From the NCBI GenBank assembly GCA_005789685.1, contig SXXD01000299.1, positions 1 to 6,750 of the forward strand: DNA of 6,750 bases. The letters run 5' to 3'. This DNA comes from Burkholderiales bacterium (GTDB taxonomy: Bacteria; Pseudomonadota; Gammaproteobacteria; Burkholderiales; Burkholderiaceae_C). The position numbers and the translations under genes were made by a program. The notes beneath the pieces were generated by a model, which saw only the letters and a program-made list of their open reading frames with translations, did no database searches and had not been told where the DNA came from. Positions 2,714-6,544 of the stretch are shown piece after piece; the stretch's first letter is position 1, and every line of letters starts with the position of its first letter.

Positions 2714-2743
2714 ATCCTACCAACTTCGGTAAACCCTTGCCAA
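2714..2743 (-). promoter_or_regulatory. Candidate sigma-70 promoter of the transporter operon
   Basis: On the minus strand, TTGGCA (2743-2738) matches 5 of 6 bases of the -35 box. TAGGAT (2719-2714) matches 4 of 6 bases of the -10 box, with an 18-bp spacer. Transcription would begin near 2707, giving a leader of about 25 nt before the ATG at 2682. The -35 box overlaps the terminal two bases of the large palindromic repeat. This is read by eye only. Confidence 0.5.
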
Positions 2744-3020
2744 TAATTGGGGTCAGATCAACATTAATTTCCAGTCAGTGAGGGCTAAGGCTGAGAGCGG
2801 CTCAATAAGTGGGGTCAGAGCAAAATTAATTTCCAATCAAAGGGGGTAAAGGCTAAGGGGGGCTGAACGATTTGTGGTACTCCACCATGAGGAAGCCCCC
2901 CTTAGCCTTTACCCCCTTTGATTGACCAAATTAATCTTGATCTGACCCCAATTATTGTCAGCCGCTTTCAGCCTTAGCCCTCACTGACTGGAAATTAATG
3001 TTGAGCTGACCCCAATTATT
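2742..3020. repeat. Nested palindromic repeat, locus A: outer inverted repeat with a second element inside
   Basis: The outer arms are 2742-2802 and 2960-3020, 61 bp each, and differ at two positions by my alignment. Both start AATAATTGGGGTCAG at the outer end and run inward through CATTAATTTCC, GTCAGTGAGGGC and TAAGGCTGA. The space between them is filled by the inner element (2803-2957) plus two bases, TC. The locus is therefore a long near-perfect palindrome with arm units ordered forward, forward, reverse, reverse. No transposase gene is present. GGGGTCAGATC-ended palindromes of this sort are common in beta- and gammaproteobacteria, and I associate them with REP-like elements mobilised by Y1 (RAYT) transposases. 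That family link is an inference. It sits in the 538-bp gene-free stretch between the divergent transporter operon and the gene at 3221. Confidence 0.9.
2803..2957. repeat. Inner palindromic element of locus A (about 155 bp)
   Basis: The left arm is 2803-2864 and the right arm 2894-2957. The termini are CAATAAGTGGGGTCAG and the complement of CAATAATTGGGGTCAG, and the arms share AATCAAAGGGGGTAAAGGCT and AAGGGGGGCT. The right arm is 2 bp longer (TTTGGTCAATC against TTTCCAATC). The 29-nt loop (2865-2893) contains a tip hairpin GTGG-TACT-CCAC. Its reverse complement matches the loop of the repeat at 6586-6743 at 26 of 27 positions, so this copy belongs to the same family as locus B. Confidence 0.88.
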
Positions 3021-3220: not shown

Positions 3221-3616
3221 ATGGATACTTCAATTTCTCTGCGCATTAACGGCAATCCTCAGCATTGGGGGGGTAGCAATTCACCTCAAGGTGAAAGGCA
3301 AAACCGCCGTAAGCAAAAGCTGGAAGCATTGCTACACAGCATCATTGCCGGTGATTTGGACACTGCGCGACAAGCCTTCATTGCCCTTGTCAATTTCGAT
3401 CCTTCTGTGTCTACTGACCCCTACCTCACTAAAATTGGCGCTGCTTTGCAAAGCAGTAACTTATACGCTGCAAGGCACTTTGCCCAGGAATTGCAAAACC
3501 GTGGCGGCCAACTTCAATTGCTGCCATTTAATGGCCATGGCGTCAAACAAATGGGTGAAAACCTAGCTACGCAAAACACCTACTCGGGGCAGATTCGGGT
3601 TGATTTGTCTGCTTGA
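3221..3616 (+). CDS. Hypothetical protein with two helix-pair repeats (131 aa)
   Basis: I do not recognise a named family. The frame starts with ATG preceded by AAAGG (3206-3210) at a 10-nt spacing and ends in TGA. The N-terminus (1-32) is polar and probably disordered, with a basic patch RQNRRKQK (26-33). Two similar helix-turn-helix stretches follow: LLHSIIAGDLDTARQAFIAL (37-56) and IGAALQSSNLYAARHFAQEL (72-91), both of the form small-hydrophobic, G/S-D/N-L, xxAR, F/A. This A-L-x-x-G-D-L-x-x-A-x-x-A-F pattern recurs in small uncharacterised proteobacterial proteins and resembles half of a TPR-like solenoid. The C-terminus (95-131) is Gly/Asn/Gln rich. No signal peptide, membrane segment or cysteine is seen. 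It is convergent with the VIT/VWA gene (25-bp gap, no clear terminator) and has a long structured upstream region. It is likely a real gene; the function is unknown. Confidence 0.72.
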   Translation: MDTSISLRINGNPQHWGGSNSPQGERQNRRKQKLEALLHSIIAGDLDTARQAFIALVNFDPSVSTDPYLTKIGAALQSSNLYAARHFAQELQNRGGQLQLLPFNGHGVKQMGENLATQNTYSGQIRVDLSA

Positions 3617-3641: not shown

Positions 3642-6146
3642 TTATGACGCAGGTGCGACCAGAGTGCGTTCAAACATTTCTATCGCTCTTTCATGCATTT
3701 CAATGGGGGCCAGTTTGAGCTGACTTCTCATTAAGCGCTGCGCATGCTTTTCTAGTAGCAAATCCTGTCCGTCTTTACTGAACAACCACTCGAACAGCAA
3801 AGCCCAGCTTGTAGCGCTGTCTTTGGTTTCACTTGTGAGGTCAAAGATGATCTGAGAGTACTCAGGTTTGAGATTGAGTTTCAGTGCTTGTTGTAAAGCG
3901 AGGCGGAACGATATTGCTTTTAGGGATGTGGCGTTCAGTACCTTGGCAATGTCTTCTAAGGAGGCATGTTGGGGCAGGGGCTTTGCAGGGATCACCGTGC
4001 TTGGCGTTACCCAATCTTTGACTTTGCTAACCACCTTAGCCACTAAGGAAGTATCGGTAGTGTCCATTTTTTGTAATTTGTCTGGCGATATGGTGGATCT
4101 TTGAATCATTTCATCCAGCGTTGGCGCCTGTTTTCGCAGGAAGGCTGGAATTTCAACATCGTCCATGCCTTGCAAACCAGACGTGCTTGATTTTGCGGCT
4201 ACAGCTGTTCTGTTGGTGCGCCAAACGCTGGGGTTGTTGAGGCGGCTGTAGTCTCCGCCTAAGCTTTTGGCGTTGCTGTTTTCTTCGTACTCAAATGATG
4301 TTGTGGAACGGCTAATTTTGCACTGCAAAATAATGGTGCCTGGAGGCCATGCCGTGCCATTTCCGCTAACACCTGCAGCTTGCATTTGCGCTATTTGTTG
4401 CAACTTGGGCAAACCTTCTGCTTTGTTTTCTTCTGCGCGTTCGTGTACCAAAAAGAAGTTGGTGTGCTGGGTGACCAATTGGTATTTGACCGCTATAGAC
4501 TTGGCTAGTTTGATGTCTGCTTTTTCCTCAGTCAACTCAGCAATTTGAGCGGCAGCGCACAACCTGGCCACAATGCCTTCGGTGTCCCATGTGATGCTCA
4601 AGGGCTTGGCACGGCTTACTTCATGCTCTTCTGCTTTGACTAAAGTCTTGCAAATTAAAACTGGAGGCGATTCTGTTTTAGCAGGCAATCTGGCATACAG
4701 GTGCACGGTTTCGCCATCGATCAATTGAGGGGGCAGGGTACTGGCCCACTCGTGGTCTTTGTGTTTGTCTTCAATGGCATTCCATTGAATGGCAAAGCGC
4801 ACTTCGTGGGCAGAGCGCATGCGTGTGATCATTCGGTCTATGGCGCCTCGCATGTCTTCGTTGGGCGTTACAAATTCGCACGTACCGCCAGTGTCCTTGG
4901 CCAATTCACGCAACAAGCTTTCTGCGGGTGCGCTGCCCACACCAATGGTGTAAACGCGGTGGCCACTTGTGCGCGCCAAGGCAATGATATTTTCAATGTT
5001 CCAAACTTCACCATCGGTAATGATTAAAACGTCGGTAGGCAATGCGTCTTCTTTGGGATTGCGTGGATTGACGCGGGTACCCATTTTGAACACATCGTTC
5101 ATGGCATCGCCCAGTTCGGTGCCACCTAAGTCGGCTTCTGTTTTGGGTAACTTCTGAAGCAGGCCTTGAATGCGCTCGCTGTCGGCCATGACCATGCGGG
5201 AAGTTTCGCGCTGCACGCTGCTGCCAAATCGTGTGTAGGCAAAGCAGTCGTTGGCATTGAATGATTTGAATAAGTGCTGGAGGGCCAAGCGGCCTTGCAC
5301 CATGCTGTCGCCAGCCATGGAGCCAGAGCAGTCTAAAAGTATTTTGAGGCGGAGTGCATTGGGCTTGGAGGGCGGCAGTTTGGGGCAAAAGCTGGTGATG
5401 ATGGCGGTGGTGTTGCTGCCTTCTGTGTCGGGGCCAGCTATGCAAAACGATTCGCCTTGTAGGTCTTCAATGAGAAGCACAAAGTCGCGGTCTAGGTAGG
5501 CTTGTTTGCCAAGTTGTACGTTGATGCCGTCAAAGCTTTTGGTAGTTTTGATGGCGTGTGTGGGGCTGCTGACCATGCCTTTGGCTGCGGTGCCTTGAAT
5601 GTCCAAGGTCATGAAGAAGCCGTATTCCACCAAGCCATTTGCTGCGGTAGTTTGGTGGGGCTGTAGTCCACCTTGTTGGTGTTGGTCGCCGTAGCGTGGG
5701 GCAATGGTGGTGGGAATGCTGAGTCTGATGCGATCGGCTTCAAAGTTTAGAAGCTGTGCGTATTCGATTTCAATGACGGCTGTTTCTCCGGGGAGTAGGT
5801 TGCCCAAGTTGGCGGTGTACAAGCCACGTCCGGAGCGCTCTACCATGATGGGTGTATCGCCGTTGTCGATGGCTTTTTCATATTTTTTGACGGCTTGTTT
5901 TTTTTCTATCACGGTGCCGTTAAGGCGCTTGCCGTTGAGTTCTACGGCTAGGTTTAAGAGTGTTGCGCCCCAGGCTAATGGGAAGGTGTAGACGGTTTCT
6001 AGAGTGTCTTCAGTTTGGTTGGTGTAGGTCTGCCTTGTTTTCATTCTGAGCAGCAAGCCGTCTAACTTACCGTGCACGTGCACAGATTTCATGGCAACTT
6101 CTTCGCCGCCACAGGTGAATGAGCAGGGTTCTTGTTCTTCGTACAT
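3642..6146 (-). CDS. VIT and von Willebrand factor A domain protein (834 aa), no signal peptide
   Basis: Residues about 8-135 form a VIT domain: LETVYTFPLAWGATL (49-63), then KYEKAIDNGDTPIMVERSGR (88-107), NLGNLLPGETAVIEIEYAQL (113-132). Residues about 264-440 form a VWA domain with a complete MIDAS metal site: D272-x-S274-x-S276 in LLDCSGSM, T343 in GGTELGDA, and D378 in IITDGE. A beta-rich part follows (445-570, ending YQLVTQHTNFFLVHER), then a Ser/Asn/Thr-rich linker (about 595-660). A peptide EIPAFLRKQA (665-674) resembles the FtsZ C-terminal peptide, and a helical tail runs from 727 to 830. There is no signal peptide or membrane segment, unlike many VIT/VWA proteins, so a cytoplasmic role in divalent-metal-dependent protein binding is likely. 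It starts 2 bp after the merR stop, with AAGG 7 nt before the ATG, so the two are co-transcribed and probably translationally coupled. The biological role is unknown. Confidence 0.92.
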   Translation of the reverse strand: MYEEQEPCSFTCGGEEVAMKSVHVHGKLDGLLLRMKTRQTYTNQTEDTLETVYTFPLAWGATLLNLAVELNGKRLNGTVIEKKQAVKKYEKAIDNGDTPIMVERSGRGLYTANLGNLLPGETAVIEIEYAQLLNFEADRIRLSIPTTIAPRYGDQHQQGGLQPHQTTAANGLVEYGFFMTLDIQGTAAKGMVSSPTHAIKTTKSFDGINVQLGKQAYLDRDFVLLIEDLQGESFCIAGPDTEGSNTTAIITSFCPKLPPSKPNALRLKILLDCSGSMAGDSMVQGRLALQHLFKSFNANDCFAYTRFGSSVQRETSRMVMADSERIQGLLQKLPKTEADLGGTELGDAMNDVFKMGTRVNPRNPKEDALPTDVLIITDGEVWNIENIIALARTSGHRVYTIGVGSAPAESLLRELAKDTGGTCEFVTPNEDMRGAIDRMITRMRSAHEVRFAIQWNAIEDKHKDHEWASTLPPQLIDGETVHLYARLPAKTESPPVLICKTLVKAEEHEVSRAKPLSITWDTEGIVARLCAAAQIAELTEEKADIKLAKSIAVKYQLVTQHTNFFLVHERAEENKAEGLPKLQQIAQMQAAGVSGNGTAWPPGTIILQCKISRSTTSFEYEENSNAKSLGGDYSRLNNPSVWRTNRTAVAAKSSTSGLQGMDDVEIPAFLRKQAPTLDEMIQRSTISPDKLQKMDTTDTSLVAKVVSKVKDWVTPSTVIPAKPLPQHASLEDIAKVLNATSLKAISFRLALQQALKLNLKPEYSQIIFDLTSETKDSATSWALLFEWLFSKDGQDLLLEKHAQRLMRSQLKLAPIEMHERAIEMFERTLVAPAS

Positions 6147-6148
6147 GT

Positions 6149-6544
6149 TTAGGCCTTGATTTCTTGGATGGTTTTCATGACTGCTTTGACAAGGGCTCTG
6201 ATTTGTTCGGGGCTCATGTCGGCTTCTTCGGGGCTAATTTGCAACTCAATGCCAGGGGCAATGTGGATGTGGCTCTTGACTTGGATGTCGCCAGGCTTGC
6301 GGGGCTTGGTGGGTATTTGCAGTTCTTCACCGTTTTGAATTTCTGCAATGCGTTCTAAGGAAATGCCAGCGTCTGAAAGTTGTTTGACTTTTAGAAGCTG
6401 GTCTAGGTGTTGAGAGAGGTAGTGAGCCGCTCTGGTTTCGCCAATGGGCCGGTCTACCAGTCCCATTTGCATGTAGTACCTCACTGTGCGCTTGGGCAAG
6501 TCGGTGAGGGTGCAGAGTTCATCAAGACTGAAAGTTTTGGACAT
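6149..6544 (-). CDS. MerR-family DNA-binding regulator (131 aa)
   Basis: The N-terminal MerR winged helix-turn-helix is clear: FSLDELCTLTDLPKRTVRYY (5-24), MGLVDRP (27-33), the wing ETRAAHY (36-42), and LDQLLKVKQLSDAGISLERI (48-67) as the second helical pair. The rest is atypical. Instead of a long coiled coil and metal-binding cysteines there is a Pro/Lys linker (78-85), a probable beta pair IQVKSHIHIAPGIELQIS (87-104) and a terminal helix SPEQIRALVKAVMKTIQEI (111-129). The only cysteine is C11, so metal sensing of the MerR/CueR kind is unlikely. The ATG at 6544 is forced, since TAA occurs in frame 10 bases upstream. The only ribosome site is AGG 3 nt before the ATG, and a promoter lies at 6551-6578, so the mRNA may be leaderless. 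It is the first gene of a two-gene unit with the VIT/VWA gene, whose expression or activity it presumably senses or controls. Confidence 0.88.
   Translation of the reverse strand: MSKTFSLDELCTLTDLPKRTVRYYMQMGLVDRPIGETRAAHYLSQHLDQLLKVKQLSDAGISLERIAEIQNGEELQIPTKPRKPGDIQVKSHIHIAPGIELQISPEEADMSPEQIRALVKAVMKTIQEIKA

Follow-up and report, generated by a model that had tools for sequence, protein, structure and literature searches.

How a protein built from VIT and VWA domains comes to carry the C-terminal tail of the cell-division protein FtsZ, and what use it might make of that tail, are the questions raised by contig SXXD01000299.1 of a Burkholderiales bacterium, of which a stretch of 6,750 nucleotides (the window) was analysed. 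The carrier is a protein of 834 residues encoded on the minus strand at 3642..6146, for which Pfam lists a VIT domain (4.9e-26) followed by a VWA domain (6.2e-14) and families of these two kinds only, the FtsZ/tubulin GTPase domain not being listed. The tail of FtsZ is a hub for the anchoring and regulation of the Z ring. We consider that the VIT/VWA protein, which carries 47 residues homologous to this tail, probably uses them to dock on the receptors of the FtsZ tail, a reading to which we assign a probability of about 0.65.

The sequence finding is firm. Residues 661-674 (4125..4166, minus strand; MDDVEIPAFLRKQA in the translated open reading frame) share nine consecutive residues (IPAFLRKQA) with the E. 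coli FtsZ tail, given as DYLDIPAFLRKQAD in PMC4117426, with an acidic residue preceding the Ile in both, exactly as had been noticed in a reading of this DNA made from its letters alone (the sequence-only reading). The window protein thereby contains a (D/E)IPAFLRKQ core in which I666 and L670 are the equivalents of E. coli I374 and L378, described in the same paper as critical for binding several tail partners. The nine-residue match holds and proves an understatement, since 47 residues (628-674, 4125..4265, minus strand; GGDYSRLNNPSVWRTNR...GMDDVEIPAFLRKQA) align with the C-terminal end of FtsZ from a genome of the same genus at 72% identity (E 2.2e-18, one genome); examples of FtsZ endings in that genus are LGGDYGRLNTPSVWRTNRTQAAAKVDGMASAGMDDIEIPAFLRKQAD and ALGGDYGRLNTPSVWRTNRTQAAAKVDGMASAGMDDIEIPAFLRKQAD. 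No Pfam family matched the 628-674 segment alone. When 40 relatives were queried with the window protein, frames of 333-448 residues bearing the FtsZ signature were matched at residues ~603-684, besides the VWA relatives, in 21 of the other 23 genomes of the genus and in one genome of the same order (G025).

Tail regions of 55 VWA loci (69 loci plus L071 and L073, minus 15 without an FtsZ search and L067, which is too short) were scored against the FtsZ tails of other genomes. Scores of 101-247 were reached by 34 of them and at most 52 by shuffled regions (20 shuffles each, against one third of the distinct tails), so that a chance match, already called unlikely in the sequence-only reading, is excluded. 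The FtsZ of Burkholderiales (L075-L093, L096-L098 and other FtsZ loci) contains, about 20-25 residues ahead of its C-terminal peptide, another conserved block (PSVWR..R..AA.KVDAL), and this block is also kept in the VWA proteins; no partner protein was found for this block of Burkholderiales FtsZ. Traces of the start of the FtsZ linker are visible in some relatives as well (VLRTGTDGVAF in L027, APSLQVMRSGCDNVPF in L073). What is shared with the FtsZ C-terminal tail is both conserved blocks (PSVWR... and GMDD.EIPAFLRKQ), the disordered surroundings and the key I and L, whereas the tail here is attached to VIT/VWA domains instead of a GTPase, with no tubulin fold, and is internal in the window protein. 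The sequence-only reading saw the core peptide and missed the PSVWR segment, the matching to the host and the relocation to the C-terminus described below.

Within the window protein, the VIT domain occupies residues 19-129 (5760..6092, minus strand; Pfam) and the VWA domain residues 269-426 (4869..5342, minus strand; Pfam), the latter with the metal-site residues D272, S274, S276, T343 and D378, which we take to be a metal-ion-dependent adhesion site. In a structure model based on a 32-sequence alignment, with a mean predicted local distance difference test (pLDDT) score of 70.6, pLDDT falls below 50 over residues 587-725 (3972..4388, minus strand), and this stretch separates the folded VIT/VWA body from a C-terminal helical bundle at residues 730-830 (3657..3959, minus strand; DSSP on the model). 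The tail is predicted to lie in this disordered linker and not in a fold; a Ser/Asn/Thr-rich linker had been placed at about 595-660, of which the disorder stands and the limits do not, the motif lying inside the linker and not after it. Across 32 homologues (the window protein and 31 of the 120 listed, picked for diversity), mean entropy is 1.15 bits in the tail columns, against 2.47 in the linker before and 2.41 in the linker after, and 1.16 in the VWA domain; W642 and P667 never vary. By this check, one suggested in the sequence-only reading, the motif is more conserved than the linker around it. A convergent or neutral resemblance without function would accommodate the family members in which the tail is altered, weak or missing, and is very improbable in view of the 47-residue homology, this conservation above the flanks, the host-matching, the terminal copies found where the internal one is altered, and the separate Desulfovibrionaceae case.

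The position of the tail was followed in the 120 homologues listed out of 2181, plus three from a region search, 122 of which are at least 500 residues long; many are near-copies, and the counts are not independent. The strict motif was found in 114 of the 122 (104 internal only, three internal and terminal, seven terminal only), and six of the remaining eight hold an altered copy, so orthologues do keep it. A copy at the extreme C-terminus, finishing QAD or QPD, is present in ten; in the window protein the tail is internal, with 160 residues after it. In the seven terminal-only proteins the internal copy fails the strict motif, being altered in six (FEDPAFLRVQ, FEVPAFLLKQ, FEGPAFSRRQ and others) and reading FETPAFLRKQ in P0109, and in L034 an internal PSVWRHGRTAAAK block is identical to that of its own FtsZ while the core stands at the protein end. 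These placements indicate that the tail moves within the protein family. On plasmid NZ_CP103373.1 of Massilia sp. H6 (L283), which bears MerR and VIT/VWA genes near an Imm74 immunity gene, the internal copy reads EVPAFLRAKP and the terminal one DIPAFLRRRAD.

The terminal copies bear on the notion of a degron, by which ClpXP would read the borrowed tail and the VIT/VWA protein would be short-lived or coupled to FtsZ turnover. The C-terminus of E. coli FtsZ is a ClpX signal according to a table of PMC8138137 and to PMC4117426, and the ten homologues ending in QAD or QPD would suit such a role; yet a plain C-terminal degron is disfavoured because the copies are internal in most of the listed proteins, the window protein included, where a free C-terminus is evidently unneeded, and the conserved region spans the PSVWR stretch as well as the IPAFL core, beyond the last residues. 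We regard a degron as unlikely.

Matching to the host's own FtsZ is also counted in favour of docking on FtsZ-tail receptors. FtsZ was not found in the window's own assembly (1.81 Mb, 73% complete), and the window's host comparison uses G040, the two VWA bodies being 98% identical. Comparison with same-genome FtsZ tails, suggested by the sequence-only reading, gave a match in relatives: for 29 same-genome pairs (VWA tail score at least 100, one duplicate dropped), distances between VWA tails and between FtsZ tails are correlated (r=0.78), and the correlation persists when VWA-body distance is removed (partial Mantel r=0.71, p=0.0002; host shuffling p=0.00005). The VWA tail is closer to its own FtsZ than to the FtsZ of the host with the nearest body in 13 of the 29 pairs and tied in 11 (nine by identical FtsZ tails). 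Across relatives, the VWA tail thus appears to follow, as a tendency, the host's own FtsZ.

Individual genomes illustrate this tendency. In Polynucleobacter, FtsZ YDLPRVFRSS..DYYEIPAFLRKQAD and VWA YDMPRVFRSS..DYYDIPAFLRKQA have PRVFRSS and DYY.IPAFLRKQA in common; G050 pairs FtsZ STPAVWRGSRTTAAQKVDALSSGGMDDYEIPAFLRKQAD with VWA STPAVWRGSRTSATRKIDSLSSRGMDDYEIPAFLRK, with similar sharing in G071, G052 and G056. Malikia (L029), from the tail-poor or terminal members considered below, keeps VWA DLGLPSLWRKPASR against its own FtsZ DLGVPSIWRKPTDR. In G082 the VWA body belongs to one clade and the tail agrees best with the host FtsZ (own 150, best other 139). Outside Burkholderiales, in Mailhella (G081, Desulfovibrionaceae), VWA SPYYGFTNEDSSIPTCLRLKEK..FVYEDECDVPTF compares with its own FtsZ NPYHGFNDEDRSIPTYLRIKER..FTFEDESDVPTF at a score of 113, other FtsZ reaching at most 51, and a whole-protein search of that genome arrives directly at its FtsZ end (E 1.3e-5). 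Another Desulfovibrionaceae VWA tail (L178, GFIFDEDEFEVPAYIR) resembles the FtsZ end FIYDEDDFEIPTFIR of G076, which is another genome's FtsZ. In Oxalobacter (L059, with its FtsZ L133), FtsZ has the unusual end DIPSFLRDRMK and the VWA protein a stretch DIPCLLRDSH that may be a decayed match.

Host-matching could arise if both tails were read by the same receptors and hence changed together, or, alternatively, if the VWA gene were re-supplied from ftsZ from time to time. In 31 tail pairs, 1042 of 1394 aligned residues agree, and codons for the same residue are identical in 464 of 969 cases, compared with 406 predicted from the codon usage of the paired genes; the test counts G001 and G041, apparently one assembly, twice. 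Because synonymous codons barely exceed chance, most copies look old and kept at the protein level, and the idea that recent gene conversion alone produced the identity was rejected.

As to which receptors might be involved, the E. coli FtsZ tail binds FtsA, ZipA, MinC, ZapD, ClpX and SlmA, and a tail peptide of 14 residues by itself binds SlmA and blocks FtsZ binding, according to PMC4117426. In a set of 18 genomes, made up of G081 and 17 that have a Burkholderiales VWA tail, FtsA was found in all and ZapD in 17, the exception being G081. In a second set of 18 genome entries, corresponding to 15 distinct genomes when identical coordinates are counted as one genome, ZipA_C was found in 17 entries with low scores, 16 of them above the cut-off, and MinC in 11. 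MinC was not found in seven entries, or six of the 15 distinct genomes (G001/G041, G043, G084, G073, G080, G045), and the VWA proteins of G001/G041, G043 and G084 group with that of the window; other Limnohabitans have minC. MinC is therefore unlikely as a general partner, not having been found in these tail-bearing genomes, close relatives of the window among them. Among FtsA, ZapD, ZipA_C and MinC, presence points to FtsA as the partner fitting every case.

Through the borrowed tail the VIT/VWA protein would dock on receptors of the FtsZ tail, first of all FtsA, and ZipA or ZapD in genomes that have them; once docked, it would become part of the Z ring or rival FtsZ for its anchors. The VIT/VWA gene may be controlled by the MerR-family regulator encoded next to it, with a regulatory effect on division. 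A role of this kind, binding of FtsZ partners in competition with FtsZ or as a tether to the divisome, had been put forward in the sequence-only reading, whose interpretation is supported, the binding itself (FtsA, ZipA, ZapD, MinC or SlmA) being putative. A wider account, in which a host-FtsZ tail was captured more than once (in Burkholderiales and Desulfovibrionaceae) and kept in step, and in which the protein, under MerR control, serves the Z ring as decoy or adaptor by drawing FtsA, ZipA or ZapD away from FtsZ or by tying a metal-dependent scaffold to the divisome, is offered tentatively, its odds being slightly under even.

Several observations weigh against docking through a host-matched tail. 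Scores below 100 were obtained for 21 of the 55 VWA loci. Of these, L021, L026 and L035 carry the core motif close to the C-terminus or right at it, L050 has the Mailhella tail, and in the others the copy is weak or missing. Within the window clade, the central part of the segment has diverged (AVAAKSSTSGLQ vs QAAAKVDGMASA). The own FtsZ is farther than that of the nearest-body host in five of the 29 pairs, G049 is a clear mismatch (own 124, best other 152), and in 17 tail-poor or terminal members the own FtsZ is best in only three (G081, G064, G087). Codon identity has z >2 in 5 of the 31 pairs, and occasional re-copying from ftsZ is possible on the codon evidence. Most related genomes probably have FtsA, ZapD and ZipA in any case, which weakens the argument from receptor presence.

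The distribution of the tail was surveyed in 299 genomes of the family, 290 of which have a tail match and six, among the matches listed, more than one; in most single-match genomes the match was assigned to FtsZ from its length where listed. The additional matches are VIT/VWA proteins (G279, G354, G118) or derive from FtsZ, namely a second FtsZ (G109), two copies of ftsZ truncated at the 5' end (G386) and 65 residues of a decayed ftsZ end (G102). Outside VIT/VWA proteins, the tail appears from these searches to be almost private to FtsZ. The two FtsZ proteins of G109 (L169, L173) stand side by side with different tails, one full and two 5'-truncated ftsZ copies of G386 (L166, L170, L176) lie within 13 kb, and the decayed end of G102 (L175) is near ftsZ; free tails could come from the truncated copies and the decayed end. 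Second, weaker FtsZ matches were seen in G045 (L125), G086 (L152) and G091 (L153-L154).

A region search for tail carriers (candidates of 459-1460 residues) returned 60 proteins, 59 with VWA listed and one, P0070, with VIT domains only. The VWA-borne tail is patchy: of 24 genomes of the genus, 5 have it, a count that includes the window's own genome and fragments. In a tree of 65 VWA bodies, built by a quick method with two long-branch joins flagged and with gain and loss not separable, tail presence must change ten times (in the case of the tail-less group, starred branches force seven of these changes) and the C-terminal copy four times. Two records require separate mention: P0072, for which PF07072 (ZapD) is listed, appears to be a chimeric contig, and L005, titled Singulisphaera (Planctomycetota), holds a Limnohabitans-type VWA gene and is probably a mixed bin.

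Patchiness, with one relative on the Massilia plasmid, together with the host-matching of the tail, would also be expected of a bait, in which the tail lures phage or toxin inhibitors of the FtsZ tail and the VIT/VWA protein serves as decoy or alarm. At E 0.01 the VIT/VWA protein has no match among the PADLOC families, no effector domain is listed for it by Pfam, and no phage record with the tail was found at E 1, a search that addresses the tail itself and not its inhibitors; a bait therefore has a low probability. PADLOC gave two weak matches on the MerR protein (mad1 1.4e-4, Cas3d 0.0052).

Full-length VIT/VWA proteins of other Pseudomonadota carry their own FtsZ tail in none of 20 cases (refetched from a set of 30, 29 of which were first seen cut by the locus end; for G533 and G750, two of the 20, no tail peptide is recognisable at the end of the FtsZ used), and the tail as a general VIT/VWA property was rejected. 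Of these 20 proteins, 15 have an N-terminal hydrophobic stretch above 1.8 and 18 a C-terminal one, and they are mostly of envelope type. A strong N-terminal hydrophobic stretch is lacking in 34 tail-bearing proteins (best 16-residue mean at most 1.80), hydropathy in the two sets being taken from slightly different starts and the C-terminal figure covering the other-Pseudomonadota set only. Because that stretch is lacking, the tail-bearing protein is presumed to be cytoplasmic.

By sequence, the closest solved structure is PARP4 (residues 13-585, E 1.9e-22), and by fold Foldseek places the body with ITIH1 and, further down, archaeal Sec23/24-like ArnAB; its relatives there also include Sec23/24-core proteins, one being Sec24 with bound cargo peptides. 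The last of these relatives lends something to another possibility, namely that the VIT/VWA body is itself a receptor for the FtsZ tail, its own tail filling the site in cis (auto-inhibition) or in trans (self-assembly). The five metal-site residues are the same in all 32 aligned sequences, and a body already binding FtsZ would account for repeated capture of the host tail; with pLDDT below 50 over the tail, however, the model shows no confident docking on the body, and we think this arrangement improbable.

PARP4 and the inter-alpha-trypsin heavy chains thus resemble the window protein in combining VIT and VWA, whereas the ADP-ribosyltransferase domain of PARP4 is not listed by Pfam for the window protein. 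PARP4 docks on the vault particle via its C-terminal part, and we know of no FtsZ-type tail in PARP4 or the inter-alpha-trypsin heavy chains. The TIGR03788 marine proteobacterial sortase targets have the same VIT/VWA core, but the window protein scores 209.6 against a cut-off of 551.65 and falls outside that family. In S. aureus, PBP4 and FtsZ share a GpsB recognition motif according to PMC11062636; PBP4 is likewise a non-FtsZ protein with the FtsZ C-terminus docking motif for a common divisome receptor, but as described there the motif is an octapeptide, borne by a penicillin-binding protein in one organism, whereas here about 47 residues are host-matched, borne by VIT/VWA proteins and spread over two phyla.

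The VIT/VWA body and the FtsZ tail are each known separately, and no literature linking VIT/VWA proteins to the FtsZ tail was found in the collection searched, absence there not being absence from print. To our knowledge, no class of non-FtsZ proteins with a whole, host-matched FtsZ tail has been described. A second, host-matched carrier of the tail would be a natural competitor or client of the FtsZ-tail hub, and cell division in Limnohabitans and related bacteria, which are common in freshwater, may thus be controlled at a further level; it would tie an unstudied protein family to cell-division control and offer a natural means of finding out which residues are read by which receptors, the PSVWR block included. 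The closest named relative of the window's genome is a Limnohabitans metagenome-assembled genome.

Upstream of the VIT/VWA gene, at 6149..6544 on the minus strand, lies the MerR-family regulator of 131 residues (Pfam MerR_1 7.3e-14). Its reading frame ends 2 bases before the VWA start codon, and the two genes probably form one operon; a MerR gene lies at most 300 bases upstream of the VWA gene in 25 of the 29 tail-bearing loci having room for it. A similar C-terminal part of this MerR protein (PGDIQVKSH...PGIELQISPEEADMSPEQIRALVKAV) is seen in relatives out to Polynucleobacter. At 3221-3616 on the plus strand, a frame of 131 residues without a Pfam or NCBIfam match is convergent with the VWA gene. 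At 2-2682 on the minus strand, two membrane frames and a periplasmic binding protein look, on reading their translations, like a branched-chain amino-acid ABC transporter. At 2742-3020 lies a large nested inverted repeat with 61-nucleotide arms that are 97% complementary and further inner arms; it contains repeated GGGGTCAG motifs and looks like an element of the repetitive extragenic palindromic (REP) or miniature inverted-repeat transposable element (MITE) type.

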